Of a stretch of 64,000 nucleotides of DNA, positions 8,243 to 59,480 are shown in pieces. Under the pieces are notes generated by a model that worked only from the letters and a program-made list of their open reading frames with translations, was not told the origin of the DNA and made no database searches. Each line of letters opens with the position of its first letter. The stretch's first letter is position 1. Origin of the DNA: Utricularia gibba (lineage: Eukaryota > Streptophyta > Magnoliopsida > Lamiales > Lentibulariaceae); the NCBI GenBank assembly GCA_002189035.1, contig NEEC01000013.1, forward strand, positions 1,178,001 through 1,242,000. Direction: 5' to 3'. The translations under genes were made by a program, and so were the position numbers.

Positions 8243-9591
8243 TCACGCAACAAAATTTGGCAAGCCTTTGAAGAATAACCTCTTGAACTGGAGCATGCAA
8301 TCGTCTTGCAGACATATCGCGACCGCCACTCCGTCGTCATCGGCCGGCATCAACAACGTGTCACCGTCACAGTCGTACGTTCCCGGACCCATGAAGATCT
8401 CTCTCCCCCATCCGAAATCCACCCCGAAGATGGGGAGCGTCAGCCAACTCACGACAGCGATGTTGGGATTCCCATAGAACGGACCCTCGCCGGATCTCAA
8501 AGCATGGATATCTTGCAACGGGGAGAAATCATCGTACCTTTTCAGGAAATCGATGTAGGAATTCACGTACTCCGCCGTCACAGACTCAATGGCTTCGCGA
8601 ATCTTGCTAGCCGCGAAGCTCAACGGTTTCATAGTGAGCTCGCCGGACAGGCACTCAGCGATCACGTCCATGGTGGCGTTCCCAAAGTACGTTCTTGGTA
8701 ACTGGGGTTCAAGCGCCTTCGAACGTCGACGCAGATCGCGAACCCCGTCGGCTGGCTGTGGATGTGGCGGCGTGCGCTGCTAGTGCACCGCCATATATGT
8801 GCGGCAATGGCTTCGTATCGGGAAAAGGGCTTACGGGTTGAAAGGGTAGTTTTGTTCGCTGCAGCTTTTAGGGCTTCTACTTGAGATTTTGATAACTTTA
8901 GCTTCACGGCGGTTGTTTTCTTATTTCTCTGGTTTTCCGTGTTTACTTCACCGATCATGAGCGGAGGAGGCTTGTATTGGACTTGCTTAGTGCCCAGCTC
9001 GGCATGCGGCTGCTCGCCTGCCCGGAGAAGACTCCGGTCGAAAACAGCCAACTCTCCGATCAGCTCCCCTCTCGCCAACCGCGCCCATTCGGAGATAAAG
9101 TGCGCAGCGCTTCGTCCGTCCGCCACCGCATGAGAAACGGCGACACCTAAGCAAAGCCCACCACACCGGAAGAGAGTGAGCTGGACAAGAACTAGCGGTA
9201 TCTCTTCCACGGGGACCGAATAATCCACATGAGGAATGAGATGATGGAACCTTCTAGACGGACTGAAATCTCCCAGGACACACATTTCTTCGTCGCAATC
9301 GGCTACGGAGAAGACAACGCCATCCCCATTACAGTCTAGTTCAAGTCTCCCCCCTTTAAGGCTTCGAAGCCGGCCGGCCAGAGGGTGGAAATAAACCAGC
9401 GCCTTGCTCAAAGAAGCAGTTAAAGTTTCAATAATGCCGGAGGACCGCCACCTTCGGTCCGGCCGGTAGAAGTAAACCGTCGGAATATGGCATAAGACCC
9501 CGACCTGATCGAACTCCGCCAACGGGGTCACTCCGGCCGGCGTAGTCTCAAATGGCGAGACAATGCATGACTTCTTTACCATAACCTTCAT
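8243..9591 (-). CDS. BAHD acyltransferase (HCT/SHT-like), one-base frameshift
   Basis: Cytosolic enzyme that transfers an acyl group from acyl-CoA to an alcohol or amine, as in hydroxycinnamoyl transferases acting on shikimate or spermidine. The single exon starts at ATG 9591 (MKVMVKKSCIVSP). The frame is open further upstream but without an ATG. Both signature motifs are present: HAVAD (the HxxxD catalytic motif) in the middle and DFGWG near the C-terminus. The frame breaks at 8704-8707, where the coding strand has CCCC after AA. Upstream reads VDVRRRLNP and, one base shifted, downstream reads TYFGNATMDVI, the usual BAHD block. One extra C would give an unbroken protein of 449 residues, the normal family size. 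Substrate cannot be read from the sequence. Either a sequencing indel or a young pseudogene. Confidence 0.88.
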
Positions 9592-11223
9592 GTCGTTTGA
9601 CCTGGGATTCACGTACGCCCTAATGGATGCTTTATATAGAGGGAGTGCTGAAGCATGAAGCTCCACGTAGCTTTCAGGTTGGACGTCCTCGACAGTGGGA
9701 AGCAAGCTCCGGGCCAAGGTTGGGACACGCGGCGGGCTCTTGGTGGTGGTAACTGCTAAGCTCCTTCATATCCCTTGAAGTGTAAGCATTTCAGAGAATG
9801 AAATGTGTCTGCCATCATCTCCTCAGACACCGAGAAAGGAAACAGAGGCCTGGGAGGGAAATGAGGCCAGATGCAACCCTGCATTTCAAGGGTTGATGTG
9901 AAGTCATTTCCATAGTTGTTGGAGATGACCGGAAACCGACATCAACAACAACAACAACAGGCATGACAAGGGGCGAACACGAGACTCACGATAAGGAAGG
10001 AACACTGCTGCCTCAAAATCACCCATGAACACAACACTGAAGAAAGTAGGTTTGCATGTGAAACCCCAGAACATTTTCATTCATGGATTTTACTTTGCTT
10101 TTTCAACGTAATAACTTTCTTCAAAGCTGGTGGCGGGGGTGGGGCTACAGCCCCCCTCGGCATTGATGATGAATTCCACGTATCACGAATTCAAAATAGT
10201 CACCAATTTGTGTTTATCATATACAGTCACACAACAGTTTGTTTCATTGATGTGTTTTAGATATTAATGGATTTAAATTATTTAAATTTAATTAAATCCA
10301 AATATGTGACTATAAAAATATCTATACATCTCTTTGATATATATATATATATATTCATATATAATGATTATATATATATAATAATTATTATATCCATATA
10401 TAAGATATAATTATATTCATATATTAAATAATATAATTTTATTAAACTTATCATAAAACAACCTTATACCCTTATATCAAACAAGTACATAGTATTGTTC
10501 GTTGTCGGGGTTCGGTCATGTAACATGTAATAATTGAAACCCGACCAAGCTCAAAATACAAATGTTTGGAATCGGATCAGAATCTTTGATTCCTAATCAA
10601 GTCGATTATTAAACAGTTTCGGTATAGTTCGATAACTTCGTTTCTTACCCGATAATTAATATTATATCAATAAACTTTACATAAAAAATTATTTTTATAT
10701 TCTTTTACCTACATCTAAAGAAAATAAAAGAAATAGATTTGGAAATCTAAAATAATAGTTTGAAAAACCCACTTAAAAAAATTGTTGAATTAAGTTAAAA
10801 ATATGATAATTGATATTATATTAATATAATGTTAGAAGTCAATGCCATATTTTTTCGCTTCATGATTTTTAAGTTTCCAAATCGAACCATGAAACCATAT
10901 TTGGTTCAGTTTCTACCCTAAACCATGAACATTCATACAACCATTTGGTTTGGACAAGAGCTGTCCGTACATAGACTAACACCCCATTGTTATGGCAATG
11001 CTGATTGATGAAAATCATAGACAAAAAGGCCTGTTTGAGGGCAACTTTTTTTTTTTTTTTTTTTTGCTTTATTCTTGAGCTCCATGACAAGAATGAGATC
11101 CATCTGAAGGAAAAGCCTTGCAAAATACACAGAAGCTACTTACTCCTCGCTACAGGTAACCATCTATGCTTACGTACGTACATACATACTCCTTGTTAGG
11201 GGCATTGGGTGATCTTCGCCCCA
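9592..11223. other. Intergenic, AT-rich
   Basis: Upstream region of the BAHD gene and 3' flank of the ARF gene. It holds TA-rich tracts near 10340-10440 and a T run near 11046-11066. No gene seen. Confidence 0.6.
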
Positions 11224-14200
11224 TCAACTTATGCAGTTGTCGGAGCTGCTGCAGGCCTGGTTTGGAATGGCGGTGGCACCGAAATCACCCTCCAGGCTCA
11301 TCTGCTGGACTTCCTGAGGAGATAGGATCTTGATGCAACGAACACAGTTCACGAATTCCCTGAACCACGCGTAAAATGGTGATGGTGTCAGAACAGAAGT
11401 TTCGAAGGAGAAAACAAGGGAACTGTTGTAAATGTAATATGGGGAGGAAGACATACTCCCAAGGATCATCGCCCACGAGCAAGACATCGTTCTCATGATC
11501 GACGTAAACCAGCTTCCACCCCACTCGCTGCCCGTCCTCTAGTTGCCCCTCTATGCCAAATCTGCGCGCTAAATCTTGTTTGAGTTCGTCATACCCTGCG
11601 TAACGGGTGATGTCGATTGATCTTCCAACTGCTCCTCGTTTGTAGACCTGTTGTGAGATGGGGGGAGGTTAGGCCAGGTCAGGATGCTAGTTTCTGATAT
11701 TGGAAAAGAAGAAGAGATAATAAGCTACCTTGGTGTACGTCCGCATTCTGGCACCCTGTTGTGGAACCCAAGCACCTCTAGGCATTAAGGTAGCATCATT
11801 CATTGAGGCCTCCATGGAGCTGAACGTGGTAACTCCAAATGACTGAGAGACCATCGATGATGTGAAATCAGGTTGGGGTTCCTTGGAGGCATCATAGCCC
11901 AGCAGCATGCTTCCACCAGCTGAGAACTCCTTAGATCCCATTGTGTTTCGACACATCGAATGATCGGGTAGTATTGGCAGCTCCATGTGATTCTCAACAT
12001 GAGATCCCAAGAGAACGTTGTCTCTTGGATCACCATGCATTTCCATTTCTTGGCTTGCATTTTGGAACATCATGGACTGGGAATTGAAAGACATGGAGTG
12101 GTTATTCTGAGGTACCTGACCGTCATTTTGAGAAAGAACGGAAGTTGCTGAGGATGAACTATCCAAATACTCTGTTTGCCCGCCACCAGGATTAGGATAC
12201 ATCTGTGAAGCAAAGGGGCCTTGGTTCCCATTTTTGGGTGTACTCAGGGGTGGCTTCTCCTCGGATTTAGTTGGGATCTGCTTGACTAGATGCCCGTTCG
12301 GGAACACATGCTCTTGTCCACTAGAGTTGAAAACCATGACAGAAGACGCTGCATTTGCGCAGTTGTTGGTGGATGGCGAATTTGAACATGAAGGGACATC
12401 CTCAGTGCCTGCAGAAGGACCCCTGGCAGGAGCTCCTGCTGAAATCCGATTGTTGATAGGGTTCAAGCAGCTTTCCAGACGTCCATTTGATTCAGAGAAC
12501 ATTCCTGATTGCTGCGAGTGATGAGACTTGGCCTGCTGCGGCAGTGTGTCAAATGCATTACCATATTGACTAGTAGTACTCCGGGGTGTTTGCTGCATGC
12601 TGCTTGTAGCTTGAGGGGCATCCATTGTCGCGGAAACAGACTGGCCAAAGTCCCGAGGGACGTCTCTGAGCTTAGACTGATCAACCAACTGCGACAACGA
12701 AGGCTGAGCCATCGCAGACTGCTGAACTAAAAGTGAATTCTGCTGCTGCTGAAGCTTCTGCAGAAGCTGAATCTGAATTTGGTTATCAGGCATAAGAAGC
12801 TGATGGCTCAGCATATCAGACGGTGGGGGTGGCAGCAAGCTTTGGCTAGGAATATGCTGCTGCAGATGAGCCATATTTTCAGACAAATTTCGCTGTAACT
12901 GCTGACTCACAAGAGACTGTTGTTGCTGGGGTAGAGAAGCTTGAGGATGCACAAGTCCTTGTGACTGCATAAACTGCGCCGGAACTTGGCTAGCCGGAAA
13001 CTTTGTTGCCAAACCTTGAGCAACTAAATTTTGCCTAGGATGCAGATTAGCATCACTCAGCTGCTCCTGCGGAGACATCAAGGAACCAACGGCATTTAAA
13101 GATGATGATGGCAGACTTTGTAGCTGGTCATCAACTGGTTGGATTGGCCTCATTGAATTGCTTTGAAAGTTGTTCTGCTGCGGCAAGCCCAACTGACGGG
13201 AAACATCACTGCCTGAAAGGTTTTGCAGAATGGAATTGGGCAAGGAGGTTGGAATGCTTGGTTGCAGTGTGTTGGCCAGTGAAGAATTCTGCTGGATGTT
13301 CATCCATTGAGCTAGGCTCAGACCAGGCAGAGCTTGGGGACATTTAAAACTGAGATCGTCCCCTCCCCAAGACGTCGCCCTCCTGAACAGAACATCTGAA
13401 TCAGAGGAATCATCATCTGCAAGAAAAAAAGACAAGAGTTTTGTAAAGGACTCGAAGTTCTTGATCCATTTTGTTCCCACAACTAGAATTCCAGAAAGTC
13501 TAGATTACTACACTCGGACAGCCGGCGGCAGCATCTCTGCCCCATGCACTAAGCATGGACCAGAACACAAATTCCACCTTTACAAAAAAGCATGGAACGA
13601 CAAGAAGGAGAATTATTCTGTCGTGTAGGCTACTGTACACCTTTCAGGAGAATCAATATTCTGAGATATTATAAGTGATAGCATCACGTGGCAAGAAGAT
13701 TTGAATAAATAATTTGATTCCTAGCAATGGGGACAAGCAAGCTCCTTTCTGTATTAGTACCTGACATTCCTGGTTGTCTTGGGCGCTTAGAACGGAAAAA
13801 AGGTGGGGTTGGCCAGATGAAAAATGGTGCAGTTACAGGTTCAATCTCCCAAATAGAGACACGAGTGCGCTTTTCTCCAGCAGTTGACTCATCCCAGCCA
13901 ACCTAGGAAATGAATGTGCACTTTAAATTAAGCCAAAGAACCAAGATCTCTTTTTTTCTTTTTTTGTGAGCTTGTTGATCATCGCTACCTGCAAGTTACG
14001 CCATTGGGAGTTCTTCCATCGGACAGGATCCAAGTCACTAATCCCAGTTATAGTGCCCATGTATCTGTTACCCGATGGGATTTTTTAGTTTTGACACGAA
14101 ATACCCTTCAAATGAAGAGCATAGAAAGCATCATCCTCACCTTCTTGTTCCGGATTCTTCGGTTTCAAACATCATCCGGAAGCGCATCCCAAGTGAAATT

Positions 14201-21784: not shown

Positions 21785-21785
21785 T

Positions 21786-21822
<37 letters not shown>

Positions 21823-21827
21823 TATAT
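21785..21827. repeat. (TA)n microsatellite
   Basis: About 20 uninterrupted TA units flanked by AT-rich sequence. Confidence 0.95.
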
Positions 21828-23145: not shown

Positions 23146-23400
23146 ATGCTTTTAATGTGGCATTTTCTTCCGCGTGACTGACTAAACATAATTTACGCAC
23201 GTGTGTACGGGATTAATTAATGGAATACCATGATTTGTTGAAACTTGAATGATGCGATTTTCTATTTTTAGGGAAGGAAGGTTCTAGACGACGAACTTCT
23301 CAGCAAAACTCTCTCCTCACGAGTTGCAATCTTCTTTCCTCAACTTCTGGAACCATTTCTCCTTTTGCAATTTCTTGATATATTTGTTTGGAACTGAGGG

Positions 23401-25137: not shown

Positions 25138-26912
25138 CTAGTTTTTGTCAGCTAAAACTTGTGAAATGCTGAACGAGGTGTTGCTTGAGCCAACCATTTC
25201 CAGCCATGAAGATTCTTGCTTCCACCATTTCCCTCTGGCGTAATTATCCTGGGATGCTGCAGATGGTTTCATGGCTTCAGGATCCAATTTTTTTTCTGGT
25301 TCTTCAACTTTGGGTTATCCTTCACCTCAGAGGAGCTAGCGGTAGGAAGAGTGTCAGATTTTGCAGTAACTTCACTTTCAGGATTTTTATTCATCAAAAA
25401 ATCTGAGACTCGGAATGTCATATTTGCACCCTTATCCACACGAGTTCTCCCTGGTGTCTCATTTGAGCTTCCCAAATTATGACTGTTCTTTCCTGCAGCA
25501 TTCTCATTTGGGGTATCTAATCTGTGACTGGAATTTGTCTTCCCATCACAAACCTGTTTCTTCTGTGAGGATACGAAGGTTGTAGGAATGTTTTCACTGC
25601 TTAGTGGCGTTTTAGGAAGGCGCTTCAGTTTTTTACATGCACGCGGATCAGAAGAGGAATTGTTAACTACCTCCTCACTGGTAACCGGATGCACCTGAAG
25701 ATTCATATCAGAGACAAATTACTATTTGCACTCATGAACATGAAATGAAAAAAAGGAGGGAGATTGCCAGCCAACAGACTGCCATTTTACCTGGTCAATA
25801 GCCATCTTTCTTGCTCTCCAATTGTCGAAAGGATCAACTCTCTTACTTGCCTGATCCACGATATTGATCACAAGGTTATCTTCACTCTCTCTATGGCTGC
25901 TACCGCTGTCAGCAGAAACGACCTCTTCATCATTTACTTGTTTTTGTGATTCGTCTTTACTGGAAAGTAGTGCTGAGGTGCTGTCCCTCCCTAAAAGCTT
26001 CCCCAGTACAGATTTCATCATGTTCATCTCATCTTCATTCATTCCATAATTCTCTGCCGCCACACACTCATCTGTATGATTACTTTTCCGCACTTCCAGA
26101 GATGGACAATGCTCCTCACAATCACAGAAGTGCACAGGAAGTGGAGGATATTCAAAGCGTTGGAAACTGTATTTGTGCTTGCCCGTTCCCTTGAAGGGTA
26201 CTGGTTTTATCTGCAGAACAATAGAGAGTTACTATCACCCATCACCACGCAGAGATGATTACTCAAAACGGATAGCATCAACTTTAAAGTCCAAGAAAGA
26301 GGCATACCTTCCTTAACTTGGGGAAAAATATCTTAAGCTGCACACCCTCAAATTCTTTGCTGTTTTTTGGTTTCTGCAAACTCTCATTCAAGTCAGCCAT
26401 ATTTTTATCCATATTCATCTGGAGCTCAGTATCTTCAGCCCATTCGCTTTTTAGCCGATCCATGTAATGTTCTTTTGCCTTCTCAAGTCGAAGCCTCCCA
26501 CCCTTCCACAAGCACCCATTATACTGCACCAACCGACCTTCACCTCCTCAGAATTCAAAAACGCTCAAGAAAAGAATGAAACAACTGAAAGAAGTAATGA
26601 CTCCGATATCCGAATACCACATTTTACTAGAATTGCCTAAACCAAATATCCAAACCCTTTACTTGCTCTATCGAAAGTTGTCGATTTCTGATAGATGTAA
26701 AACTCAATGGGAGAAAGCGAAGAAAATACCTTGTTGAAGAGCATGGTGAGGCCCTTTTCGGAAGCAGGATCAAAATCGAAATACGCAAAGCTTCGACCTT
26801 TAGAGCGAATAATTTGGACAGAATTCACAGCACCTAGCTGCGGGGTGCCAAATATCTTCTTGATCTCATCTTCCTGCACATTCGCTCCCAAGCCCCCTAC
26901 ATGAATCCTCAT
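25138..26912 (-). CDS. RRM protein, REPRESSOR OF SILENCING 3-like, one-base frameshift
   Basis: Likely RNA-binding protein related to Arabidopsis ROS3 (At5g58130), needed for active DNA demethylation together with ROS1. Four exons: 26912-26730, 26523-26308, 26210-25791 and 25694 onward. Residues 1-80 are an RRM (MRIHVGGLGANVQEDEIKK; RSFAYFDF; YNGCLWKGGRLRLEKAKEHY). A middle block reads KGTGKHKYSFQRFEYPPLP followed by HFCDCEEH, typical of this plant family. The conserved end SSWLEMVGSSNTSFSISQVL lies in another frame. As written, the frame stops at 25269, after an A8 run at about 25288-25295. One extra A would restore reading to a stop at 25138, about 458 residues. That is shorter than the roughly 750 I recall for ROS3. 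Whether it shares the ROS3 role is inference. Confidence 0.8.
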
Positions 26913-29456: not shown

Positions 29457-29485
29457 ACAAGGAGAGGGATCAGAACATTCTCCTT

Positions 29486-29792: not shown

Positions 29793-32160
29793 ATGCTGGA
29801 AACGGGGTCGTCATCGACTAATGGGCTCCATCTCGGTCGCCGGATCCACTCCACGGCCAAGCGATTGTTTGCCCATAAGATCCCTTGATCTCTTTCTGGG
29901 TATTCTTTTTCGTCACTTTGTTTCGCTGGCAGAGGGGCTCCGCAACGGAGCTCTCGATTTCTCGATGCCAGTTGCCGAACACAATAGAGTTCCCGAAGCT
30001 TCGGCCGACTGGGTTTAACTTGACGGAATTCGGGGGAGTCGGGGATGGGTTGACTCTTAATACGGCGGCGTTTGAAAATGCGATCAGGGCTATCTCGGAA
30101 CTTGGGGATCAGGGAGGTGGCCAGCTGAATGTTCCACCGGGAAATTGGCTCACTGCCCCGTTCAATCTCACCAGTCACATGACGCTATTTCTAGCCGAGG
30201 GGGCTGTCATTCTTGGGATTGACGTGAGTGTTTCCATTTTTGCTCAAACCATATTATTTTCTTTTATTTAAAGATCTCGATTTTCTCCATGAGTATTGCA
30301 CAAATTTACCTGGCAAGTGTTTGGTTTACAAGTTATAAGTGTTTGATAACTCCAGCCATTACAAGTTAAAAGTGTTGAAAGAAAGAGGGAATCTTTGTTA
30401 ACTTAGGCACTGTGATAAGCGCAAGACAAAACCTTTGCTAGACTGAATTATCCCCAAATGAAAGTTACCCTCTTCCCAATTTGCCATTTCAACTGACTTC
30501 GCATGCTGAATAGACTCATTGGAAATACGAGGATCTGGTCTGGACCTTGACTATGTATGTGGCACTTTGTGCAGTGCATTTTGAGCTTGAATTTTCATCT
30601 TGTTCTGTTATGGCCATAATTTCCTTTGGCATCTGGCTACTGATCCAAGCATGAATGTTTATTTGCAAATCTGGAATTCTTTCCATTGATAGCGTTATTG
30701 TAGCAGGGAGAATCGAATTCGACGTATTTCTTTGGAGTAATGTGACATAGAAACTGTTAATAGTTAAGCATGACATTACAATGATGCTTTAGTTCATGGC
30801 ATGTGGAATAGCAGAATCCATAGAGGCATCTATCTACTGGAGTTAATTAGGTGCACTGCATTTTACTCCTTTGTGGGCATTACCTGCAACTTCAGTTTAC
30901 ACCCTCAACGTTCTCTAGGATGAGAATTATTGGCATCTGATGCCTCCACTGCCCTCGTATGGATACGGGAGGGAGCATCCAGGACCACGTTATGGAAGTT
31001 TAATCCATGGGCAAAAGCTCAAAGATGTTGTGATCACAGGTGCTGTTTCTGGCTCGCTCTCTCGACAAAATGGCATGAATATGCTTTGATATGAGTTTAT
31101 CCTGCAGGGAACAATGGCACCATAAATGGCCAGGGACAAGCGTGGTGGAAAAAGTTTCGTCAGAAGCAACTTAACCATACCAGAGGGCCGCTTGTGCAGA
31201 TTATGTGGTCGAGCGATATCGTAGTATCGAATGTAACCCTGCGAGACTCCCCTTTCTGGACCCTTCATCCTTATGATTGCAGGAATGTGACGATAGCAAA
31301 TTTGACCATCCTTGCTCCTCTTCTTGATGCTCCAAATACTGATGGAATAGATCCTACCCTGACAGCTGCGGGACGCAGATAACTAATGAACTCTGGGTTC
31401 TCAGATTCATGCCAGGACATGGTGATTGAGAACTGCTACATCAGTGTGGGAGATGATGCTATAGCAATCAAGAGTGGTTGGGATCAGTTCGGCATCGCCT
31501 ACAACCGTCCTTCCACGAACATACTCATTCGGAATCTGGTTGTCCGATCAATGGTCAGGTGAGAAACGCCCAAGTTCTGATTTTTTTGTTCTGTATCATG
31601 ATCAGCTAACACCATGGCGTCGTGGCCTGAATGACAGCGCCGGTGTCTCCATCGGCAGTGAGATGTCCGGTGGGGTATCGAACATCACCGTTGAGAACCT
31701 TCACGTCTGGAGCTCGAGACGAGCCGTCCGAATCAAGACGGCGCCGGGGCGCGGCGGCTACATCAGAAACATAAGATACAGGAACCTCACATTCAGCGAC
31801 GTCCGTGCGGGAATTGTCATCAAGACGGACTACAACGAGCACCCTCCCGGATACGACCCCACGGCTCTTCCGATCATCGAGGATATAACGTATGAATCCG
31901 TGCACGGAGAAGGCGTGGAGGTGCCGGTACAGATCTACGGCAGCGCAGAGGTTCCGATTAGGAACGTCCTCTTCGGGGACTTGTCCGCGGGAATAACTTC
32001 CAATAACAAGCACAATTTTCAATGTGGGTTCCTGGAGGATCGCGACGTAGGCTCGGTGTTTCCTGCTCCTTGCGACAACCTCGATCCGTACGATGAACAG
32101 GGGCGGCTGCTACGGCGGCCCGCCGCCAGGAATGCATCCGATATAGACCACGATTTTTAG
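29793..32160 (+). CDS. Polygalacturonase-like GH28 glycosidase, frame broken near N-terminus
   Basis: Secreted or membrane-anchored pectin hydrolase. Exons about 29793-30223, 30919-31039, 31108 to about 31354, 31405-31558 and 31638-32160. From ATG 29793 the protein reads LHLGRRIHSTAKRLFAHK and then stops. One base shifted at 29882-29884 (CCC), it continues ISFWVFFFVTLF, a hydrophobic anchor, and FNLTEFGGVGDGLTLNTAAF. One extra C would join the two parts. GH28 motifs are NTDGID, VGDDAIAIKSGWDQFG, VSIGSEMSGG and RIKTAPGRGG. The usual His of GHG is replaced (AGVSIGS), as I recall for this plant subgroup. Exon 3 should end just after DGIDP, but no GT donor lies there and the gap to the next exon is only about 50 bases. 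The gene is therefore either misassembled at two points or decaying. Confidence 0.85.
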
Positions 32161-35839: not shown

Positions 35840-36381
35840 CTACTCTGCAACTACTCCGACCGATGAATGAATTCTCGCCGGTGGCCGAGCAATGGGGGCG
35901 CGGCGATCCCACAGACAGACGACGCTGCCGTTGAGCGCCCTCAAATCTTGCGATTCGTACCATCCCATATCCACGAGCCTCATTGCCGCCGTTAGTTGCC
36001 ACCCCATTCCGTAATTTGAGCCATCTACTCTCCGACCCCGCCACCGCCGCCACAGTCGTCGTTCTCTGCTTCCTCCCAATCATCGTCTCCCTCTCTGAAA
36101 TCATCCACCACATAATACGAACTAAACTTCTTTTTCACACCCCCTTCGACGCAAACAGGCGAGGCGGCGACTGATTGAAGGGGCTGAGACGCAGGTGATG
36201 TCGCGGGCTCGAGTTCGGCAGATGAAACGTCATCGTTTTTACGAGGCGAGGCTAAGGCTTTGATCTTCCAGAAGCTAACGGCGGCGGTGATGACTGCAGC
36301 CCAGGTGAAGGCCGCCAACAATCCGGCGTCGTTGAAGTACTTGAAGGCTGGAGATTCAACCGGCGATTCCAGGGCGATCAT
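35840..36381 (-). CDS. Small conserved plant membrane protein, probable one-base frameshift
   Basis: Uncharacterised single-exon gene. ATG 36381 opens MIALESPVESPAFKYFND, then a hydrophobic helix (LLAAFTWAAVITAAVSFW). A Ser/Pro/Glu-rich middle and an acidic stretch (REGDDDWEEAENDDC) follow, then a glycine run and a stop at 36025. One base shifted, the following sequence reads MRLVDMGWYESQDLRALNGS and VVCLWDRR, which looks like a genuine C-terminal domain and resembles a motif I associate with small unnamed plant proteins. An extra G in the GGGG run at about 36039-36042 would join both parts into about 180 residues. If the stop is real, the protein has 118 residues. No function is known to me. 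Confidence 0.6.
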
Positions 36382-37234
36382 ACTGGCATTCACGTCTGCT
36401 CTGCGTTAGTCCCAGAGTGTGTGTGGCGTGGCGTGCAGGCGATATTTCAAAGAGAAACGTGGGGAATCTGGACCGTCAGATCGAACGGAATGTGCTAAGA
36501 TCCAATTTTGTGATTCCCCTTGTGGGTCCCACTACCTGCAAGGTAGCTATTATTTAAACACATGCCATTTGGATATCAAATTTAGAATGATATTCATATT
36601 CTTTTATAAAAAATAATATAATTACTGTCTACACTATAAAATTTTTATATAAAATTATTTTTATACTCCAAATATCGAAAAAGTATCTTCTATCATTTGC
36701 ATCCACTATATCAAACTTTTCCAATAATTTTTCTATTCCATATATATGGTATGTTCTGTTTTATAATTTTTTTGAAATGATATTATTTGATTTTTGAAGA
36801 TTCTAATCTTTCTCCAGTCTATAGTAAAATTAAAAATTCAAATTCTGTGATTAATTTCATAAATTATTAAATTTCTTAAATATTTATTTTAGAGATTAAA
36901 TAAGATATTAATTAGAAAAATTATACTTTCATTTTTATCTATTTTAAAAATGTATTTATATCATAATATTAAATTATATAATACCTTAATATATTATAAT
37001 ATAATTTAATGTTATTTCATAAAATAATTTTACAATCTCAAATTGATTCACATAATTTTAAAACTGATTCTATTCTATATAATTTGTAGCGTACATAATA
37101 AGAACATAGATGGTTTTCGCCATAATTGAAATTCGTCAGCAAGATTGCAAATATCGGAGTTGCGGCGGCGGATCACCAAACCCTAAAAATGCAACGTCGG
37201 AGGTCTTTCGAATCCATACGGCGGCGGATACCTA
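36382..37234. other. Intergenic, AT-rich
   Basis: No gene seen. Most of the stretch is the AT-rich dispersed repeat copy at 36785-37086. Confidence 0.6.
36785..37086. repeat. AT-rich dispersed repeat, copy 2
   Basis: Shares ordered blocks with 22865-23145 (AAAATTAAAAATTCAAATT, ATAAATTATTAAATTTCT, ATTTTAAAACTGATT) and with 35190-35455. Terminal repeats are not obvious, so the element class is unknown. Confidence 0.55.
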
Positions 37235-38315: not shown

Positions 38316-38502
38316 CTCCGGTTCTTACGACGATCTCTCATCGCTCTGCTTTTTCTTTTTGGGGTGCTTTTCAATCTTTTGCGCTTGGTTGTTTGTTTTC
38401 CCAGCTGATTTTGATTGGTTTTTTTTTGTGCGTGCGGAGGAGGAATTGGAAGCCTGTAAACCGGAAGCCCTTGGAAGTAGTCGCTGGATTGTCTGCTGAA
38501 GT

Positions 38503-41500
38503 ATGTCGTCCAATAAGCGTAACTACAAAGACAAGAATTCTCGACGCCATCCGTAAGTGTTCTTTCGCATTCTCTGGATCCTGTTTTGAGTACTGTTTTG
38601 CAATTAGATTTTTTTTTGAGGATGTTTTGATGGATTGATTGGGTGGGGGAGACCAAAAGGATACTTATTTGGAAAATTTTGTGTCAAATATTTAGTAAAG
38701 AGGAGAAACCGGAAGAGCCTGAGCAACCAAAGTACCGAGACAGGGCAAAAGAGCGAAGAGAAGATCAAAATCCTGATTATGAGATCACTGAGCTAACGTC
38801 GTTTCATGCTGTTGCACCACCAGGGACTGTTGACATTCTGTGAGAAGCTGTTTGGATTTTTTTTCTCTTTATTTTCTTGTTTATAGTTTTACTTGTGCTA
38901 AATCAGTGTGCGTTTGGTGCTTAATAGGTCTGCTGATGCACACAAGTTATCCATTGAAAATAGCAAGTATCTTGGAGGTAAGAGCAGTAAATTTTCCTGG
39001 CTTATACTGTGTTGATTGATGCTATGTTCTCGGCCCTATTACAAATAATATCCAAAGGGATGTGCCTTTTGTGATACGTTCTTGTGTTGTCGATCGATTT
39101 AATTAGTTGGATTAAAAAAATTTTAAAAAGGGTCCAACTTCACTTCATTGATTTTAGGCTGTGTTGCATAAATGGTGAGTTTTTTCAAGGAAGATCTATT
39201 TTTTTCTTTTAGGCCATGCCTTTGGACCTATAATAGAGCAATAGAATAGGGGACATTGCACAGCAATCTGTTTTTGGAACATGAACGCATCGATTATTTA
39301 ACATCTCTGATGGATATTGGATTTAACTTCAGGTGATTTTGAGCACACCCATCTCGTTAAGGGTTTGGATTATGCTTTGCTTCAAAAAGTCAGGAGTGAA
39401 GTCGCCAAAAAAACAGATGATGGAGGAAAGGCTGAAGATAAGCTCGAGTGGGTGATTCTTATTATGTTAATATTTATTGCAATCTGTGGCTTAGCACTGC
39501 GGAAATAACCTTCTAACAACTGGGATGTTGTACACATTTTCTTGGGCTGATCTGGTATGTAATCTAAGGGTTTCTTTCTTTTTTTTTTAATAGAACAACT
39601 AAGGATGATCAGCCAGTCACTTTTCGAACTGCTACCGCAAAGGTGTGTGACTTTGATTAGAAATCTTCAAGATGGGTGGGATTTTTTTCCTGAAACACCC
39701 ACCATACCGTTTTCTTTTTTTTTTTTTTTTTTGCAGTCCATTCATCAATGGATAGTGAAGCCTCAGACTTACAAGACCAATGAATTGTTCCTTCCTGGGC
39801 GAATGGCTTTTGTATTTAACATGGTGGGATCCCTCTCTCTTCCTCTATGTTTTCCATGTCTGTCTGTAATCTGATCCGTGTGGCATACCAGCTAAATGGT
39901 TTTGTTTCATGAATCGCTTAATATTGCACCTTAAGTATTTATATAATTGTTCTGAGAGATAAGCATTTAACCCATCAAGCTTGGTGTGTACCACTTATTT
40001 CTGTTGGAGTTCACGTGGATGCCATATTGACTTTTTAATTAAAATGATCCAGGAGAATATTTTCACCCAGGATATTCCAACCACAGTTTATAGGAGTAAA
40101 GCTGATTGCCCTGTTCCTGAGGTCGGACTATCTTCGTCCATTCTGCATTGCTATTCTGTTCTCTAGATCTTTTGCGCCTTAAACTTTCTTGCTTTTCAGG
40201 AAATGGTGAAAGCCAGCATTGATGGTTCTGTTTTGGATCGAATTGCTAAAATTATGTCATATCTTCGCCTTGGGTCATCTGGAAAAGTTCTGAAAAAAAA
40301 GAAGAAAGACAAAGATAACAAAGGTGATACCTTGCAACGTTTTTTTTTTTTTTTTGGCTGATGATCGTATACGTTTTCTGAGTTTTTTGTGATGAAATCA
40401 TTTTCCATTCACCATGTTAGATGAGGCATGCGCTTACTTGCGCTTCTGTTTATTTTCTCCTGTCAAATTCAACATATTTCCCGTGCTTGAAAATACAGTA
40501 GGAAAGATAATGAATGGGCACGAAGTGAATGAAAGGACTTTGAGAGCAGACGATTCAAAAAATCATACTGCAAGGGAAATCCTTCCTCCACCTCCTCCAC
40601 TTCCTAAGAAGCACATTCCTGATCCAAAAGAGAAGGTTCAATCAAAACCTCGAAACAATGAGGATGATATTTTTGTAGGCGATGGTGTGGATTATTCCAT
40701 TCCGAATAAAGATATGAGCCAGAGCCCCATCTCTGAGGATATGGAAGAATCCCCCGGAACAAGGAGAAACCTTCTTACTTTGAGGATCCTGTATATGGCC
40801 CGGTACCTCCAGCTGAGCACGCTGATGTTTGGCAGCAAACAGTGAGTACTTTGGTTCAAGCCATCATTTTTTCTTGCAAATTTAGTACTCTTTATTCATG
40901 CATGTTCCTTTCATCTTGTCTGTAGAGTGGATATGATGCACTGCAAGCGCAAGCATTGGCCAGCAGCTACCAGGGGGAGTGGCAGGAGTACCAGTATGGC
41001 ACTGAACAACTAGGTTACCAAGACCAATACCTGCAGCAGGAGATCCAGTCCTACGATATGCAATCCATACAGCAGGACCCACGTTTAATGACTCAGGAGG
41101 ACAAGGACAGAGGCCTGGGATCTGTATTCAAGCGAGATGACCAGCGGCTCCAACAGCTGAGGGAGAAGGATTCGCGGGAGAAAGATCCCAATTTTATATC
41201 TGAGAGTTACTCCGAATGCTATCCTGGTTACCAGGAATACAACCGTGAGGTTGTTGACAGTGACGACGAGGCTGATTTAACCAAAATGGACATGGGAGGC
41301 CGTGTAAGTACTCCCCCTCCATTTCTCAAAAGGATTACATACATCAGTTGTACAAAAGCTGCAGGAATCACTGATATGCTTCCATGCAGGCGAAGGGGCG
41401 GCTTCACCGTTGGGACTTCGAGACCGAGGAGGAATGGGCCAACTACAATGAGCAGAAGGAAGCAATGCCGAAAGCAGCCTTCCAGTTCGGTGTCAAGATG

Positions 41501-41668
41501 CAAGACGGGCGGAAGACACGGAAGCAGAACAGAGATCAGAAACTCACAAATGACCTCCACAAGATCAACCAAATCCTGGCGAGAAAGAAGGCCGAGAAGG
41601 GTGAGAAGAATGATGAGGGTCGGCCTTTTGATGCAGAAGTACACCCCGCAAAGAAGCTCCGAATCTGA
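38503..41668 (+). CDS. SMU2/RED spliceosomal protein, one-base frameshift
   Basis: Nuclear splicing factor homologous to animal RED (IK) and C. elegans SMU-2; with SMU1 it influences splice-site choice in the B complex. Eleven exons (38503-38552, 38696-38839, 38928-38977, 39333-39447, 39594-39642, 39737-39823, 40053-40121, 40200-40323, 40499-40841, 40926-41303, 41390-41668). The RED N-terminal block has KYRDRAKERREDQNPDYE, HTHLVKGLDYALLQKVRSE and QDIPTTVYRSKADCPVPE. The C-terminus has KGRLHRWDFETEEEWANYNE and ends PAKKLRI. In exon 9 the frame is lost at the CCCCC run 40751-40755: DMEESP is followed one base later by NKEKPSYFEDPVYGPVPPAE. One more C gives about 562 residues, normal for the family. 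The reading frame beyond the break is fully conserved-looking, so a sequencing indel is likely. Confidence 0.9.
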
Positions 41669-42005
41669 TCTTGTATTGCATGAACCTCTGATCATATTAC
41701 AGCAACCTCGTGTTAGATTTGTAAGGGATTCAAATTTGTAAGAATGCAGTAACTCTACCGTGGCCTCATTATGTTCACTATAAAACCAGTTGAGCTTCTT
41801 CACGCTAGAGTCGAAACTTGTCTCTCAAGGCTGGAGGTATGATCTCCTTAGACATTGACGAATGTCTTTCTTTTCTGTTGCTAATTGTCTTCCAAAGCTT
41901 GAATTTCACGTCGTAACTGAGTAAATTTGTGCTACGCTCTTGGCATGCCTTGCAAATGCTCGACGATATGCCTAATAGAATTCTTGTTCGATTCAATCCT
42001 CAGGG
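41669..42005. other. Intergenic: SMU2 3' flank and mtHD upstream
   Basis: About 340 bp between two plus-strand genes. No separate feature seen. Confidence 0.5.
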
Positions 42006-47540: not shown

Positions 47541-47903
47541 ACCCTCTGCTGTTTCTACATACATAATACCCTTCTCAGTGCTGAATCCATGGGAGTCGGA
47601 GCGGGTTCTTTGAAATGTACATCCTTGTAGCTTCTTTGATTCAATGCTTAGCAGTTCTTTCTCTGAAAAATTTGCTCTGGTGGTTTGTTGGTTTTGTTGA
47701 AAACCACCTTGAGCAAAATAGTTCACCAAATTGCAAGATATGTTCATTGCTTCCTGAGTATTTCTGTCAGGATACTCATTTTTGATCCACTTTGTCAAAT
47801 GCCTACTGTTGTCTGCAATTGTTCATGATACACATTGTATTCTAATTCTAACTGCATTACGGGCTATGAGAAACATCCCCATCATCATCTTCTGAAGAGT
47901 AGC

Positions 47904-49729: not shown

Positions 49730-50219
49730 CTTCTTCTTCTTCTTCACTCAGAAAGAAGATAAAAATTCAATCTTTGCTTCTGGGTTCACTGAAAAAAGGG
49801 TTTTTGGATGAGGGGAAGTGGAAGGAAAAAGGCCGAAAGCAAAACCCAGAAAGAAGAAAAGCGACTGGGAACCATCAGAGAAAAAAAGCAGCTTGGTTTG
49901 TGTGTGTGTGAAGATGATAGAGTTGTGGTGTTCTGTCAGAGTAGCGCTGAATTTTGTGTTGGATAGATGCGACTGAAAATAGTAAAATATTTGGTTGTTG
50001 TTGCGCATTAAATGCCAGTCCTCTCCACGTTTTAAATTATTATATTGTGCATGATGAACTAATAATTACTTTTCACCTTTTGTGATAGGGAAAGGGTATG
50101 AATCTGCAATTTATGGAAAGGAGATCTCAGAAAAAGTTCAGTGTTTTACATGGCACTTAAAACAACAAGCTCATGATGGTGACAGCAATGGGTGGAAAGT
50201 GGCAATCTCTCAGCTTCAG
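49730..50219. other. Intergenic: promoter of the ankyrin/PGG gene
   Basis: The upstream DNA has a purine-rich tract on the plus strand near 49735-49870, meaning a CT-rich leader on the coding strand. No gene seen. Confidence 0.5.
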
Positions 50220-51515: not shown

Positions 51516-51962
51516 TTTCTTCGATTCCCAAATCCCCAAGATAACGAACCACTTCGGATGTAAAATGTGCAGGGCAAATGAAAATTCCTAAAAACTGTAA
51601 CCGAAGCACGTGTACGTTTTAATAAGACGTGTCCCTTCGCCAAAGAGCGATGTCCAAACCGATGCAATGGATCAGTTTCTTTCTTCAAACTTCTGTTGCT
51701 CATGGCCACTGGAACTGCATCACATTTTTCCGGTTTGTTGATTGATTACATGATCTTCTTCGTTTTCCAACGTTTCTTTCTACAGTTAGCTGTGAAGACT
51801 GTTTGCTTGAATTTTATTTGGAGGCAGGGTGACGGGGGTAGTTGCATCAGAAGAGCCCCGTGAAATAGAAGTGGAGACGAATGAAAAAGAACTTAGATGA
51901 GGAAAAAGATGATGGAGAAATATTGGTCAACAAGGTTGGATTGGGAACTTCCAATCTGAAGA
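51516..51962. other. Divergent promoter between cupin_5 and LAZ1-like genes
   Basis: About 450 bp. Contains an ATG-starting short frame near 51882 (MKNLDEEKDDGEILV) that could be an upstream ORF or leader of the LAZ1-like mRNA. No other feature seen. Confidence 0.4.
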
Positions 51963-53900
51963 ATGCTCTGGAATATATTTCATTTCGCAATCTTTCAGAT
52001 AGTTCTTATTATTTCTGACTTGTGCTGCTCACATTTTGGCAGCAACTCATCAAAAGAAGACATGGCATTCCCCTTGTTGATCTATCAAAACATCTATGGT
52101 GAAGTTCACGTGCCAGGAACTATCATTGCAGGGTCTCTTGTTGCTGTAGCAGTGGCTCTATCGCTCTTCCTGACTTGCCAACATCTTAGATGCTACACTA
52201 AACCTTCGGTCAGTCATTGAAATTTGTAGCTTCTTTGTTTAAATCATAGAGTTTTCCTGAAATGTGCAAGCTGGAATACGCCTCAGCTCAATATATTCAG
52301 CCTTTCATATGCCTTTGTTTTTCTGCTTTTCATTAACCAGGAGCAGAAATGGATTGTGGCGGTTATATTTATGGTTCCAGTTTATGCAATCGAATCAGTT
52401 AAGTATAATTTGTTGATCATACTGATTAACTGTTTAGTCCAGAAGATTATCTGGTAATGGAGATTTCATTCAAAAGTTTGTTTTCCTATTCTTCACCAGA
52501 TATTGTCATTGTTGAAACCAGACTTATCTCTTGCTTGTGATATATTGAGAAACTGCTATGAAGCATTTGCCTTGTATTCCTTCGGGAGCTACCTGATTGC
52601 ATGCCTTGGTAAGATTTTCTTATTCTTAACATTGCCTTCTGTTGAGTTTATATGGATTCAGTGAAACTGCTACTTGTTTAGGGGGTGAAGCAGAGGTTGA
52701 AGAGCTGCTTGAAGATCAAGGGAAGGATCAGATTACCAAGCCACTGCTAGAGGGCAAGATACCTCCAGAAGAGAAAACATTCCACAACTTCATATTCAAA
52801 CCATGTAGGCTTGGAAAAGACTTGTTCCCCATAATAAGATTTGGCCTAGTTCAATACGTAATACCCCTTTCTTGGTCTGTGCTTTTTCACATCCTTTGTC
52901 TCATATCATGACAATAAATGTTTGCATTTCTTCACAGATGATCCTAAAGACATTATGTGCATTCTTAGCTTTCATCCTCGAGATCTCCGGTGTTTATGGC
53001 GACGGACAGTTCAAGTGGTACTATGGGTATGAACAATATACTCTCCTCAACATGTGAAGGAATTCCCATGGATCCTTTTACAGTCTCAGCATCATTGCAG
53101 GTACCCCTACATTACCATAGTTCTGAACTTCAGCCAGATGTGGGCATTGTATTGCCTGGTTCAGTTTTACAATGTGATGCATCGGAGACTCGAACCAATC
53201 AAACCTCTTGCGAAGTTCATCAGCTTCAAGGCCATTGTATTTGCAACATGGTGGCAGGGAGTAGGCATTGCTCTACTGTCCCAGTTTAAAGTCCTCCCAA
53301 ATGAAGAAAGACTGCAGACTGGACTGCAGGACTTCCTCATCTGCATCGAGGTGAGAATCAGACCATCTTTGTGCCCTCTGCTAATGATCAGATCTTTTCT
53401 GAAACCTTGGAAGCTCATGGTTTCGGTGTGAGCAGATGGCGATCGCAGCAGTTGCTCACATTTACGTCTTTTCGGTGGAGAGGTACCATTTCTTGCCAGC
53501 ATCCAACATCGGCAAGATCATCACTGAAGAGACAACGGCTGTGGTTGAAGAGGAAGGCGAGCAGCCCACCGTCGTTGATAAGAAGGAAGCAACGATCGAA
53601 GCACCCGGGACGAGTGTGAAAGAAAGCGTGGAGGATATCGTAGTCAGAGGAGGCCAAAAGGTAATGACTTTCACATACATGATGGCTCAGGTGTCCGTTT
53701 TCCGATTGATCAAGAGGTTGGGTTCTCTGGCTCAGGTGGTTCAGGACGTGGTGTTGACGATAAACCAGGCGATAGAGCCTGTGCAGGAGGGGGTGACCAA
53801 GATTCAGGAGAAGATTCATAAGATAACAGTCGCCGGAGATGATCAAGAGGAGCCGGAGGTGACGCTGGAGGCGCATCAACGCAAGACCATATCACCGTAG
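51963..53900 (+). CDS. LAZ1 homologue, DUF300 seven-helix membrane protein
   Basis: Tonoplast or endomembrane protein of the OST-alpha/TMEM184 superfamily. Arabidopsis LAZ1 affects hypersensitive cell death and brassinosteroid-linked vacuole integrity. Seven exons (51963-52208, 52341-52397, 52500-52608, 52682-52857, 52938-53026, 53101-53350, 53436-53900) give 463 residues. The N-terminal hydrophobic stretch (FAIFQIVLIISDLCC) is followed by PGTIIAGSLVAVAVALSLFL. Family blocks are WIVAVIFMVPVYAIESILSL, DILRNCYEAFALYSFGSYL, FLAFILEISGVYGDGQFKW, IVLNFSQMWALYCLVQFYNV and AIVFATWWQGVGIALLSQF. The hydrophilic C-terminal third is acidic and lacks a recognised domain. The start at 51963 is preferred because it supplies the first helix; ATG 52062 (MAFPLL) is an alternative. 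Intact. Confidence 0.9.
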
Positions 53901-54237
53901 AAGATGAAACAGGATGAGATTTTGAATGCGTTTAATTGTTTTTTTAATAAAATGTTTAATTAGGATCAACTAAACCCTAATCGGATTGAAAAAAAAAATG
54001 TCAATAAAACCAGGGATTAAAAAACAAAATAATAATAAATCAGGGATTAAAATGTGATTAGTGGAAGTTTTTTCATTTGTTCCGCTGGTTGGGAATTTTT
54101 TATGCTGCTCTCTAGTGAAGAGCCCTGGTAAAAGTAGGCTTATTCGTCTTCCCCGGCGTCCAACACTTTGCCGGCGCCGACGTCTGGAATTTGTTGGAAT
54201 TCTCGATGGGGATTGCGTCTCTCTCCTGGAGTAATCG
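53901..54237. other. Intergenic between LAZ1-like and PPR genes
   Basis: About 340 bp holding the LAZ1-like 3' flank and the PPR promoter. No separate feature. Confidence 0.5.
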
Positions 54238-56982
54238 ATGAACTCAGGTGAAGGTTCCTATGTCGACAGAATTATGTTTGCACTTAGATATGCCAAGCAG
54301 GTCCGAGCCTTACACTCCACATTTTACGGCGGAGCTTCCTATGGCTGTAATTCTGTTGCTTCTCTATGCACGTGTGCCTCAGCATCGCAGTTTTCATCGT
54401 TCAACTCCGTTTACCCTTTCTTCTCTTCTTCGTCATCGGAAGCCGTCGATGGTTCGCAAGGATTTCAATCGGAGGCGGCGCGGGATGCTATAATCAACTG
54501 CTTCAAGAGATGGTTTATGTCGAGAAAGAATCCCCTTTTCGAGCGAATTTTCGATATTCTGCGTACTCAGGAGGACGCTGCTGCGAATTTAGCGCTTTCG
54601 CAGATGGATTTTGAGCTCAATGAGACTTTGGTACTTGATGTGCTGAATTACGACAAAAATGATATACTTTCTTGCTTGAAGTTCTTCGACTGGGCGGGCC
54701 GACGGCCAGGTTTTCACCACACTAGAGCAACATTCCATGCCATTTTTGGCATAATATCTAAAGCCAAGACGAATTTGATGATGGAATTCTTGCAAAATTA
54801 TGAAAACCGGAGATATCTACATAAGGTTAGATATCATAATATACTAGTCATGGGTTATGCAGTGGCTGGAAAAACCGAGATTGCACTGCAGCTTCTTGGT
54901 CAAATGCGGTATAGAGGTATGGACTTGGATCAGGTTTCATACCAGGTTCTTATGAATTCACTTGTTGAGCAGGGTTCATATGGTGTGGTGGATACCTTGG
55001 CTAAGCATGTCAAAGATCGAGGATTTCAGAATGAGATGACACATGCCATCATGGTAAAGAATTTCTGTAAGCAAAAGGATTTTGTAAGGGGTGAAAAGTA
55101 TTTGCGATCTCTTGTTAGGGAAGGTGATTTTCGAATTAGTGGCGCTGTTGGAACCCTTGTAGATGCCTTGTGTAAGGATAATCAATTCCAAAGAGCTGCA
55201 GGATTACTTCAGGAGTTCCGAAACATTGTTTCCACATCAATGCCCCGAGCCTATGGTGTGTTAATAGGAAATCTTGTCAAGGTTGGAGAATTGGATAGTG
55301 CATTAGATTTTCTTTATGATAAGCGAGCAGTAGATGGGTATGTTCCAGATATCATTCGGTATAACATGCTGGTATACAGGCTTTTGAGGGAGAATAGAAC
55401 GGCTGAGGTTTATGATTTGTTGGTGGATATGGAAGAAAGTCATGTGTTGCCAGATAATACTACCATGAATGCAATCCTTTGCTTTTTATGCAAGGTCGGA
55501 ATGATGGACATCGCCCTGCACTTGTATGAATCAGGGGCAGATTATGGTCTTTCTGTTAATTTTATGGCTTATAATTACCTTATAAATGCACTAGCTAGGG
55601 ATGTCAAGGTTGACGTAGCATGTCAAGTGCTGAGAAATTCCATAGAACATGGTTTCCTACCCGGGGATGAGACCCTGTCCATGATCTTCGATGCCCTAAA
55701 CAGAGAAGGAAAACTTGACGAGATGATAGAAATGGTTCGGCTAACAGAAGGTCAACAGAAAAATATTAGGATCAGTAACTCGAGTTATGACAAGTTCATA
55801 TCAGCTCTTTGTATGAACAGCAGAGTGCTTGAAGGGTATTTCATGCATGTACTGCTCAACAGACCAAATAAAAAACCTCAGAGGAGGACATACATGGACC
55901 TGATAAGTGGTTTAAGCCAGTCAAGTAGAGGAGATATTGCTGCCGAACTCTTCATTGAAATGCAAAGAAAGGGTTACAGACCAACCCAAAACTTGGTAAG
56001 AAAGGTGATAAGTGGCATTTGTGAAACTAGTAACGCAGAGGATCGGTTTTTCAAGTTATTCGAGATGCAGCTTGGTCAATGTCGATCATCCTTTACATAT
56101 GATGCCTTCATTGATGGAGCTGGTCATGCAGGAAAACATGACCTGGCTCGTCAGGTATATCAAAGGATGATTAGCAGTGGTATTGAACCAAATTTGAGAA
56201 CCAACATGCTTCTTCTGCGGAGTTACATAAAATGTGGAAAGATTCAGCATGCCACAGATTTTTTCATTGCTTTGTTACAGAAGTGGCCTAAAAAAAGTTT
56301 ATGGGTCACCATGATTGTTGGTCTATCCAAAGCCAAAAAACTGGGGAGAGCTTTACGGATGCTCGACTATATGATGTCAAATAATATGATTCCAAGTGTA
56401 GAATGCTTTGAGCAAGTCATAATGGGATTGTGTAGTCGTGGTCTCTATGGGTTAGCTATACGTCTGCTCAATGACATGACAAAACATGGCCGTCCAATCT
56501 CTTCCTTTGTTGGGAACACATTTCTGTGTCATGCTCTAAGAACTAAGAGCGTGCACTTTATATTGGCGGATTTAGACAAGAAGAGAATGCTGACTCCTGC
56601 CTGCTCCAAGTTGGGCGATGCAGTAGGTGCGTTATGTGGTGCTATTGAGGAAGACTTTGTGGAACAGTTATTGAGTCTGCTTGGGGAAATCTATAACATA
56701 GATATCTACACTAACAACATTCTGTTGAGGAGAATAGGAATGAGCGGAATTGATCGAGCAGTTGAGTATTTTCATAGGTTGCAAGACGATGGCTACAAGC
56801 CAAACAGATGGACGTACGATATAATCGTCCATGGATTGAGTAAAGAGGGACGGTACGAGGAAGCAACAGTCTGGCGGGAGAAGATGCACAGCAAAGGTTT
56901 TGAACTCACTGAAGGGACCTTTCTGAAATACCAGGCAAGCCACTCTCTTTCCGAATCTGTGGTGCAGAATGAAGGATTGTGA
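54238..56982 (+). CDS. P-class pentatricopeptide repeat protein, probably mitochondrial
   Basis: Sequence-specific RNA-binding protein expected to act on organelle transcripts (stabilisation, processing or intron splicing). A single intronless exon encodes 914 residues, typical of PPR genes. The first 80 residues are rich in Ala, Ser and Arg and poor in acidic residues, consistent with a targeting peptide. From about residue 190 tandem 35-residue repeats can be followed: YHNILVMGYAVAGKTEIALQ, YQVLMNSLVEQGSYGVVDTL, YGVLIGNLVKVGELDSALDF, YNMLVYRLLRENRTAEVYDL and near the end YDIIVHGLSKEGRYEEATVW. No E, DYW or SMR domain is visible, so editing activity is not expected. I think it is close to Arabidopsis At1g71210, but from memory only. 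Target RNA cannot be predicted here. Confidence 0.93.
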   Translation: MNSGEGSYVDRIMFALRYAKQVRALHSTFYGGASYGCNSVASLCTCASASQFSSFNSVYPFFSSSSSEAVDGSQGFQSEAARDAIINCFKRWFMSRKNPLFERIFDILRTQEDAAANLALSQMDFELNETLVLDVLNYDKNDILSCLKFFDWAGRRPGFHHTRATFHAIFGIISKAKTNLMMEFLQNYENRRYLHKVRYHNILVMGYAVAGKTEIALQLLGQMRYRGMDLDQVSYQVLMNSLVEQGSYGVVDTLAKHVKDRGFQNEMTHAIMVKNFCKQKDFVRGEKYLRSLVREGDFRISGAVGTLVDALCKDNQFQRAAGLLQEFRNIVSTSMPRAYGVLIGNLVKVGELDSALDFLYDKRAVDGYVPDIIRYNMLVYRLLRENRTAEVYDLLVDMEESHVLPDNTTMNAILCFLCKVGMMDIALHLYESGADYGLSVNFMAYNYLINALARDVKVDVACQVLRNSIEHGFLPGDETLSMIFDALNREGKLDEMIEMVRLTEGQQKNIRISNSSYDKFISALCMNSRVLEGYFMHVLLNRPNKKPQRRTYMDLISGLSQSSRGDIAAELFIEMQRKGYRPTQNLVRKVISGICETSNAEDRFFKLFEMQLGQCRSSFTYDAFIDGAGHAGKHDLARQVYQRMISSGIEPNLRTNMLLLRSYIKCGKIQHATDFFIALLQKWPKKSLWVTMIVGLSKAKKLGRALRMLDYMMSNNMIPSVECFEQVIMGLCSRGLYGLAIRLLNDMTKHGRPISSFVGNTFLCHALRTKSVHFILADLDKKRMLTPACSKLGDAVGALCGAIEEDFVEQLLSLLGEIYNIDIYTNNILLRRIGMSGIDRAVEYFHRLQDDGYKPNRWTYDIIVHGLSKEGRYEEATVWREKMHSKGFELTEGTFLKYQASHSLSESVVQNEGL

Positions 56983-57498
56983 GGAACCTGATTATTTATA
57001 TTCTTACGTGGATCAAGTCTTTTTTTATGAATGTGTACTCTTTCTTTGGCTAAATGGAAAGAAAGTGATCATTGTTTCATGTAACTTCTCTGTGTTCTAG
57101 TTTCTTCATACTGCACTTTGCTTACTAATAACCTGTTCTGATGCATACTCATGGACCTTCTGTTTGCCATCAAAACTGGATCTCTTTGAGAATATACTGT
57201 ACAGATACTGTACTTGAGAGTTCTAAGCAAAACTTCACATGTTAAAGTTTCTGAAGATTGGATTATAGATTTCTCATGAGAATTTGCATTTTTGTCATAA
57301 AATCATGATATAAGGAGCTCTATCCACCCATTTACAATACATGAATGACAGCTAAAAAAAACACGAAGCAACATAGTGAAGATAGAAGTTCGTAAGCATC
57401 CGTTTTAGAGAATACAAGATTGTTTTTGCCTTCATATTCTTTGGATACTGTGCACATCTGGTGAACTTCTTGTCAACCGAGATGAATGACTGATATAT
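56983..57498. other. Convergent 3' flanks of PPR and TBL genes
   Basis: About 515 bp between convergent genes, AT-rich, no other feature seen. Confidence 0.5.
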
Positions 57499-59480
57499 CT
57501 AGAGCTGCGCAAACAAAATTTCATTCCATGTATCAGGAACACCAGGTAAGCACCAGTGCAAGCAATCCTGGACACCAGGAGAGGCTTTGATGCTGTAGCG
57601 GGATATATGGCCCTCATCTCGCAGTTCTGATAGACCGGTGATGTCAAGAAGCTTAATTCTTGTTCCCCTCACTGCAGCTGATGCAACAGGATCACTAGAT
57701 TCATCTTTCACAATTTCCTTTCCGCCAGAGAGAGGGGTTGTGTTGTCACAAGTACCTCCGGTATTCCACTCCCCGTTGAAAAAATGTCGGGGTGAGATAG
57801 ACCTAAGGAACACTTTCAGATCAGGGTATAAGGGGAGCTGTGAATCCATCCATCTGACAATACTGTGAATGGTGAAGTTCTTGGCACCCCCATGTCTGCA
57901 ATCCTCCTGTTAGTGTTTGGGACACCGCCAACATGCATGATCCATTTGTTGGCATTGAGTTTTCCCCTGTTCCAGTGATGCCCTGTATTCAGGACCACAA
58001 CATCGAATTTGTGAAGAAATTGCTGCAGAAATGCTGGGGGCCGATCAAGATGCATTGCAAATGCAGTGGTCGGGCTTGATGCATTAATAGGCTCCAAATC
58101 GCAGAGACTTGCAGACCAACGGTAAAGAATTGTTGTGTTAGTTCTGGTAAATCGATAAGCCCATCCATCAGGTCTTGTTGCAAAGTGAGCTCTTACGAGT
58201 CCATAATCAGACCCAACGTCCACAATTTCAAGTTTGTCTTCCCCACCAGTCACCATGCACATGAGAGACTGAAACTGCTGTCGACCCAGTGAATCCCCAA
58301 CAATAGCCAAAGTCTTGTCACGCATTCTACAGCCCATTCAAGGTGCACATGTAACTAATGTGAGTAAGGGAGGAGACGCTGAATGCATTAGGTAATTTTG
58401 TGTTCAAGCAAGAAATAATATGATGTACCTCTCCAGGAACTTGGAACCTGAAAAGTTTTCCATTTCACAATCTTTGGGTTGCCACCGAAGTTTCTCATAT
58501 TCAAAATCTGTGCGTTGGGTCAGACGACAAGCCCACATAGTTGACAACCATCGCTTACATCCAAAGCCAGAGTACAGTGGGCGGCTATCATCATATATCC
58601 ATTTACCCCTGGCATAATTACAATCTGAAACCAGATAGATTAGGCACTAGAGATGGTTATTGATTCTGAAAATGCCTTGCAACTAAATCAATAACAACTA
58701 AGTTCTAAGGAGGGCAACAGTAATAGGGAAAGCACAAATCTATGTTTCTACTTTTAGCAGCATAACAATATAAGCTAGTGTTGAGAAGCAATAACTGACT
58801 CTTGATGAATTGGATTACATTATTGCAGAAAATATACCTTTATATCTTATGTAAGTAGATATGCTTCTTGCTCCCTCACTTATATCTAATGACTTGGCAA
58901 AATTCTTCTTTTCAGATTCTGCCTGTTTCAATTTAGTTTCTCCACTGGGGAATTCAGCTACTTTTGTTCTAAGAGAACCAGGACCATCTGAATCAACCCA
59001 AGATGCAACAAAAAATTTATACATAGAGATCTTGTAGATAATAAGAGGTACATAAGGATCAGCAGATAAATTCCATAAAGAATGTAACCTTTGTTTCCTT
59101 CTGAAGATGATAAATTCTGTGCTTCCTCTCTTGTAAGATGAGCTTCTACTTTTATAAAATTATTTGAAAAATGCACCAGTGGTTCAGATTCCTTTCTTTC
59201 TTCAGAGAAGCTACCAGCTACTCAGAGATTGAAGAATAATCAAATTGTCAGCCCCTCATAGTTAACCAAGACAAAGAGCGACTTTCAATCTTATTCTCGC
59301 AAGGATAGGATTATGTAGAGGCAAACCTGAGTCTCCTTGGATGACGAAACTCTGATTTGGGATGAAAGATGTCAGGATCGTGGTCTTTGTCCATGCGAAA
59401 GCAAGCACACTGGCACATACTAACCAGATGAGGATTAGGGAGAGTTGAGAACCCTTAAGCGCTTGACTGCCTGATTTCAT
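57499..59480 (-). CDS. TRICHOME BIREFRINGENCE-LIKE wall-polymer O-acetyltransferase, one-base frameshift
   Basis: Golgi type II membrane protein of the PMR5/TBL family, which adds acetyl groups to cell-wall polysaccharides. Five exons: 59480-59327, 59217-59089, 58987-58838, 58624-58429 and 58326-57499. The N-terminal anchor is [19 protein letters not shown] variable Ser/Glu-rich stem is followed by the TBL domain ([38 protein letters not shown]). The GDS motif is [18 protein letters not shown]. The DxxH motif near the end is [16 protein letters not shown]. The frame breaks at the GGGGG run (57887-57891 on the plus strand): RRIADMG continues one base later as [20 protein letters not shown]. 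One more G gives about 485 residues. Best matches from memory are the TBL14-16 group; polymer specificity is unknown. Confidence 0.88.

Follow-up and report, generated by a model that had tools for sequence, protein, structure and literature searches.

Do the frameshifts in six genes within one stretch of the Utricularia gibba genome reflect genes that have decayed in the plant, or bases that were lost when the genome was assembled? The stretch analyzed here, which we call the window, is 64,000 nucleotides long (C375:1178001-1242000) and belongs to an assembly of 100.09 Mb in 516 contigs. It is most likely the assembly made from PacBio reads with HGAP, at 88x and with an N50 of 3.4 Mb (PMC5793159). 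This reference is well known as a model of how genomes shrink and lose genes, and wherever a claim of gene loss is based on a single frameshift in it, that claim would need rechecking if such frameshifts are errors.

The searched parts of the assembly contained no near-identical second copy of the window, only a diverged block on C480 and paralogs elsewhere. The C480 block is a collinear duplicate (window ~11200-63900 against G000:C480:255900-280000, ~70-81% identity), and its genes are among those referred to below as ohnologs. The window also carries dispersed repeats of ~250-350 bases (7723-8077, 10240-10486 and 36750-37090), each with many diverged copies genome-wide, which are likely short transposable elements.

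Results

A preliminary description of this DNA had proposed that six genes are each short of one base at or next to a mononucleotide run, and that all six changes are losses. Both points held, as all six sites could be placed exactly and the net change at each of the runs given is -1, the downstream frame being the one reached after losing one base:

8243-9765, minus strand: BAHD acyltransferase; C4 run at 8704-8707, frame change just ahead of the conserved YFGNA motif
~25140-26910, minus strand: ROS3-like RRM protein; A8 run at 25288-25295, final ~48 aa lost, open frame goes on
~29794-32160, plus strand: GH28 polygalacturonase; C3 run at 29882-29884, within the N-terminal signal/anchor part, placed by ohnolog alignment
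~35850-36380, minus strand: small membrane protein; G4 run at 36036-36039 in a GGC/GGT-rich stretch, placed by the open frame only
exons ~38502-41669, plus strand: SMU2 (RED homolog); C5 run at 40751-40755, match to human protein Red, with RED_C downstream
~57502-59480, minus strand: TRICHOME BIREFRINGENCE-like (TBL) acyl-esterase; G5 run at 57887-57891, PF13839 in two halves, ohnolog on C451

Some 21 genes were recognised in the window (our own count, from Pfam matches and ORF reading), with a coding total of ~20 kb in which the CDS limits are approximate. Six of ~21 is 29%, in agreement with the earlier estimate that about a quarter of the genes in the region would be split or truncated. The count of six losses out of six gives a two-sided p of 0.03, which is weak by itself; the single direction becomes a strong argument because of the genome-wide data on breaks described below.

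The same description held that family-like protein is found on both sides of every break, and this was borne out by family or paralog support for BAHD, polygalacturonase, SMU2 and TBL. In the BAHD gene, Pfam positions 1-299 of PF02458 are matched before the break and 286-429 after it, in two frames, and the alignment with an intact paralog on C304 shows a single-base gap at the run. TBL behaves in the same way, with PF13839 positions 12-144 before and 149-283 after the break in two frames, and a single-base gap at the run in the nucleotide alignment with the intact ohnolog on C451. The SMU2 halves flanking the break both match human protein Red (E 3.6e-72) and the RED_C domain lies downstream (Pfam). 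Pairwise dN/dS values before and after the break, which against an ohnolog or paralog exclude only an old loss of constraint, were 0.09 and 0.14 for TBL and 0.20 and 0.17 for BAHD. Constraint thus persists past the break in both genes, as it does in the polygalacturonase exons described below, and low values on both sides argue against these being pseudogenes.

For the ROS3-like and small membrane proteins the claim did not extend beyond the open frame. Neither the 48 aa tail of the former nor the 61 aa tail of the latter had a Pfam match and neither protein has a paralog in the genome, so these two breaks are read from the open frame. A DNA search of the collinear C480 block found neither the ROS3-like gene nor a copy of SMU2. 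These negative results go against the six genes being duplicates in decay. Arabidopsis smu2 mutants are viable, and because of this the housekeeping function of SMU2 is a weak argument when taken alone.

The polygalacturonase is a more complex case. In the nucleotide alignment, its intact ohnolog on C480 has one extra base at the C3 run, and the gene has in addition a second anomaly:

31340-31406 (near 31350), plus strand: polygalacturonase intron without a 5' splice donor, seen by ohnolog comparison

In the C480 ohnolog the intron has a normal GT donor, within the DPDSC motif; in the window copy GT is missing from the donor site, and the intron is shorter than that of the ohnolog and contains an in-frame stop. 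We considered the 31350 break as the site meant in the preliminary description and rejected it, since it is distinct from the C3 run at 29882-29884. Judged by the ohnolog, the lost donor near 31350 appears as a lesion separate from the break and not as a homopolymer error; it is probably a real one, and the gene may be truly damaged in the plant. Independent pseudogenes would, according to the preliminary description, be expected to show mixed lesions; among the six genes, a lesion of another kind was seen in this one. The exons after the break are nevertheless still constrained, with a pairwise dN/dS of 0.15-0.27 against the ohnolog.

The same fault recurs across the genome, within the chosen families that were sampled there. 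Among 44 GRAS loci, which were aligned in a frameshift-aware manner to a profile made from intact members of this mostly intronless family, one-base losses were seen in 12 genes or more, the majority of the sites being G/C runs, and most of these genes are otherwise clean. In five GRAS paralogs the breaks lie at runs of C or G and all fall within one short stretch near the RPGGPP motif, a pattern that independent decay would not give. HSP70 copies on C496 and C451 break at C3 and G3. When contiguous frame breaks were pooled over GRAS, HSP70, BAHD, UGT and TCP1 (chaperonin), the first three being convenience samples, the net change was -1 in 27 of 31 (p = 3e-5), mostly at G/C runs where the run was read, and one of the four exceptions (on C244) consists of two separate one-base losses. 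Most of the chaperonin and UGT data gave little information, as their matches are split by introns or low conservation. The faults hit genes irrespective of function, as the list of these five families illustrates, and the presence of one lesion type in GRAS regulators and HSP70 alike speaks against pseudogenes. In the ARF (auxin-response-factor) gene and the neighbouring collinear gene we saw no insertion-type break relative to the ohnologs, the gaps being read as intronic or non-coding.

One HSP70-like gene is present both in the main contig C304 (L070) and in the redundant contig C241 (L069), identical over 1.6 kb, and in both its frame breaks at the same G5 run. The lesion may be true, or the two contigs may share a systematic error.

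Several small contigs duplicate stretches of large ones (C316 and C506 against C412 and C451; L053-L062), mostly at 99.6% identity or more, and such pairs serve for measuring assembly error. Over 29 kb, C316 and C412 differ by 23 substitutions and 43 indels, 35 of which are of one base. Natural variation normally has the opposite composition, with substitutions outnumbering indels. Longer runs differ more often than short ones, and G/C runs far more often than A/T runs: at lengths of 2, 3, 4 and 5 bases the rate was 4.5, 7.7, 54 and 250 per 1000 G/C runs, compared with 0.8, 1.2, 2.9 and 8.5 per 1000 A/T runs. Assembled copies of the same DNA thus disagree at runs, in this pair and also between C506 and C451. 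As an example, a difference of one C in a C4 run gives one GRAS gene a length of 615 aa in C412 but of 412 aa in C316. Applied to the ~20 kb of CDS in the window, the C316/C412 rates predict 3.9-8.6 G/C losses; five were observed, plus the A8 site. These rates are to be read with the provisos that C316 may be poorer in quality than the main contigs, although nine bases of C316 are in turn missing from C412, and that part of the differences could be true allelic ones.

Discussion

Taken together, our results point to the six breaks as residual one-base deletion errors in a noisy long-read consensus, a reading to which, from sequence data, we give a probability of about 0.93. This is the explanation that the preliminary description had offered, and it has gained support from the genome-wide breaks, the duplicate contigs, the run rates and published precedents. 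The errors most likely stem from the PacBio HGAP/Quiver assembly of Utricularia gibba, a platform that we infer. The consensus would under-count short homopolymers, chiefly runs of 2-6 G or C bases, and the errors would be spread everywhere but come to light only within reading frames. In the plant the genes would then most likely be intact, with the polygalacturonase as a possible exception, and the reads would be expected to hold the longer runs. Three observations go against an artefact: one of the six runs is an A8, a kind of run in which true slippage often occurs; a further lesion of the polygalacturonase lies outside any run; and the HSP70-like break is identical in C304 and C241.

The second of these leads to a variant of this explanation in which assembly errors account for five of the breaks and the polygalacturonase would be a genuine pseudogene, possibly with a run error as well. 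We consider its chances about even. The intron near 31350, with its in-frame stop and missing GT donor, and the intactness of the ohnolog speak for it, yet the constrained exons mean that any real decay would be recent, and a local assembly fault is possible at this intron too.

That all six are real and recent pseudogenes, i.e. duplicates decaying after whole-genome duplication in a small and shrinking genome through true one-base deletions, seems very unlikely to us. The collinear ohnolog blocks (C480, and C451 for TBL) do imply that some copies are dispensable, and the polygalacturonase has its second lesion, the lost splice donor. The lesions are nevertheless nearly all net -1 at runs, and the other five genes have no stops or longer indels alongside, which fits poorly with decay, as do the constraint, the genes for which no duplicate was found and the recurrence of the lesion in unrelated families noted above.

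Still less probable is true run biology, either a lineage with raised G/C-run deletion (e.g. through impaired mismatch repair) or slippage that restores the frame during expression: one-direction losses at G/C runs genome-wide would agree with it, but slippage should affect long A/T runs most of all and produce insertions as well, while here G/C runs of 2-5 bases dominate, insertions are rare, T16-T21 runs survive in the window and a stretch assembled twice differs between its copies. It is just as hard to credit that the plant truly has shortened G/C runs throughout its genome by deletion-biased mutation and tolerates or corrects the frameshifts.

If residual consensus deletion is the right explanation, an uncorrected loss every ~4 kb of CDS would split or truncate about a quarter of the gene models, and counts of lost or pseudogenised genes would be inflated. 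We found no report of frameshift errors in this assembly in the open literature.

Comparable errors have been described after HGAP and Quiver in bacteria: 205 residual indels, almost every one of them in a homopolymer of G or C, in Streptomyces albus SM254 (PMC4832174), and 561 one-base homopolymer deletions in Enterococcus faecium ATCC 700221 (PMC4888979). Both assemblies resemble ours in that one-base indels or deletions in runs were left behind, and there they were found by comparison with Illumina data; they differ in that ours is a plant genome, judged from the assembled sequence. The rate also differs, at roughly one per 4 kb of CDS here, as inferred from coding frames, against roughly one per 5-35 kb in the two bacterial genomes. 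With regard to pseudogenes that arise from run-associated one-base frameshifts, any single gene would look identical to those described here. Real pseudogenes, however, collect stops and indels of mixed kinds and are no longer constrained, and the splice donor of the polygalacturonase is the only lesion of that kind among the six genes. With the polygalacturonase as a possible exception, the breaks fit a known kind of assembly artefact and not real gene loss.
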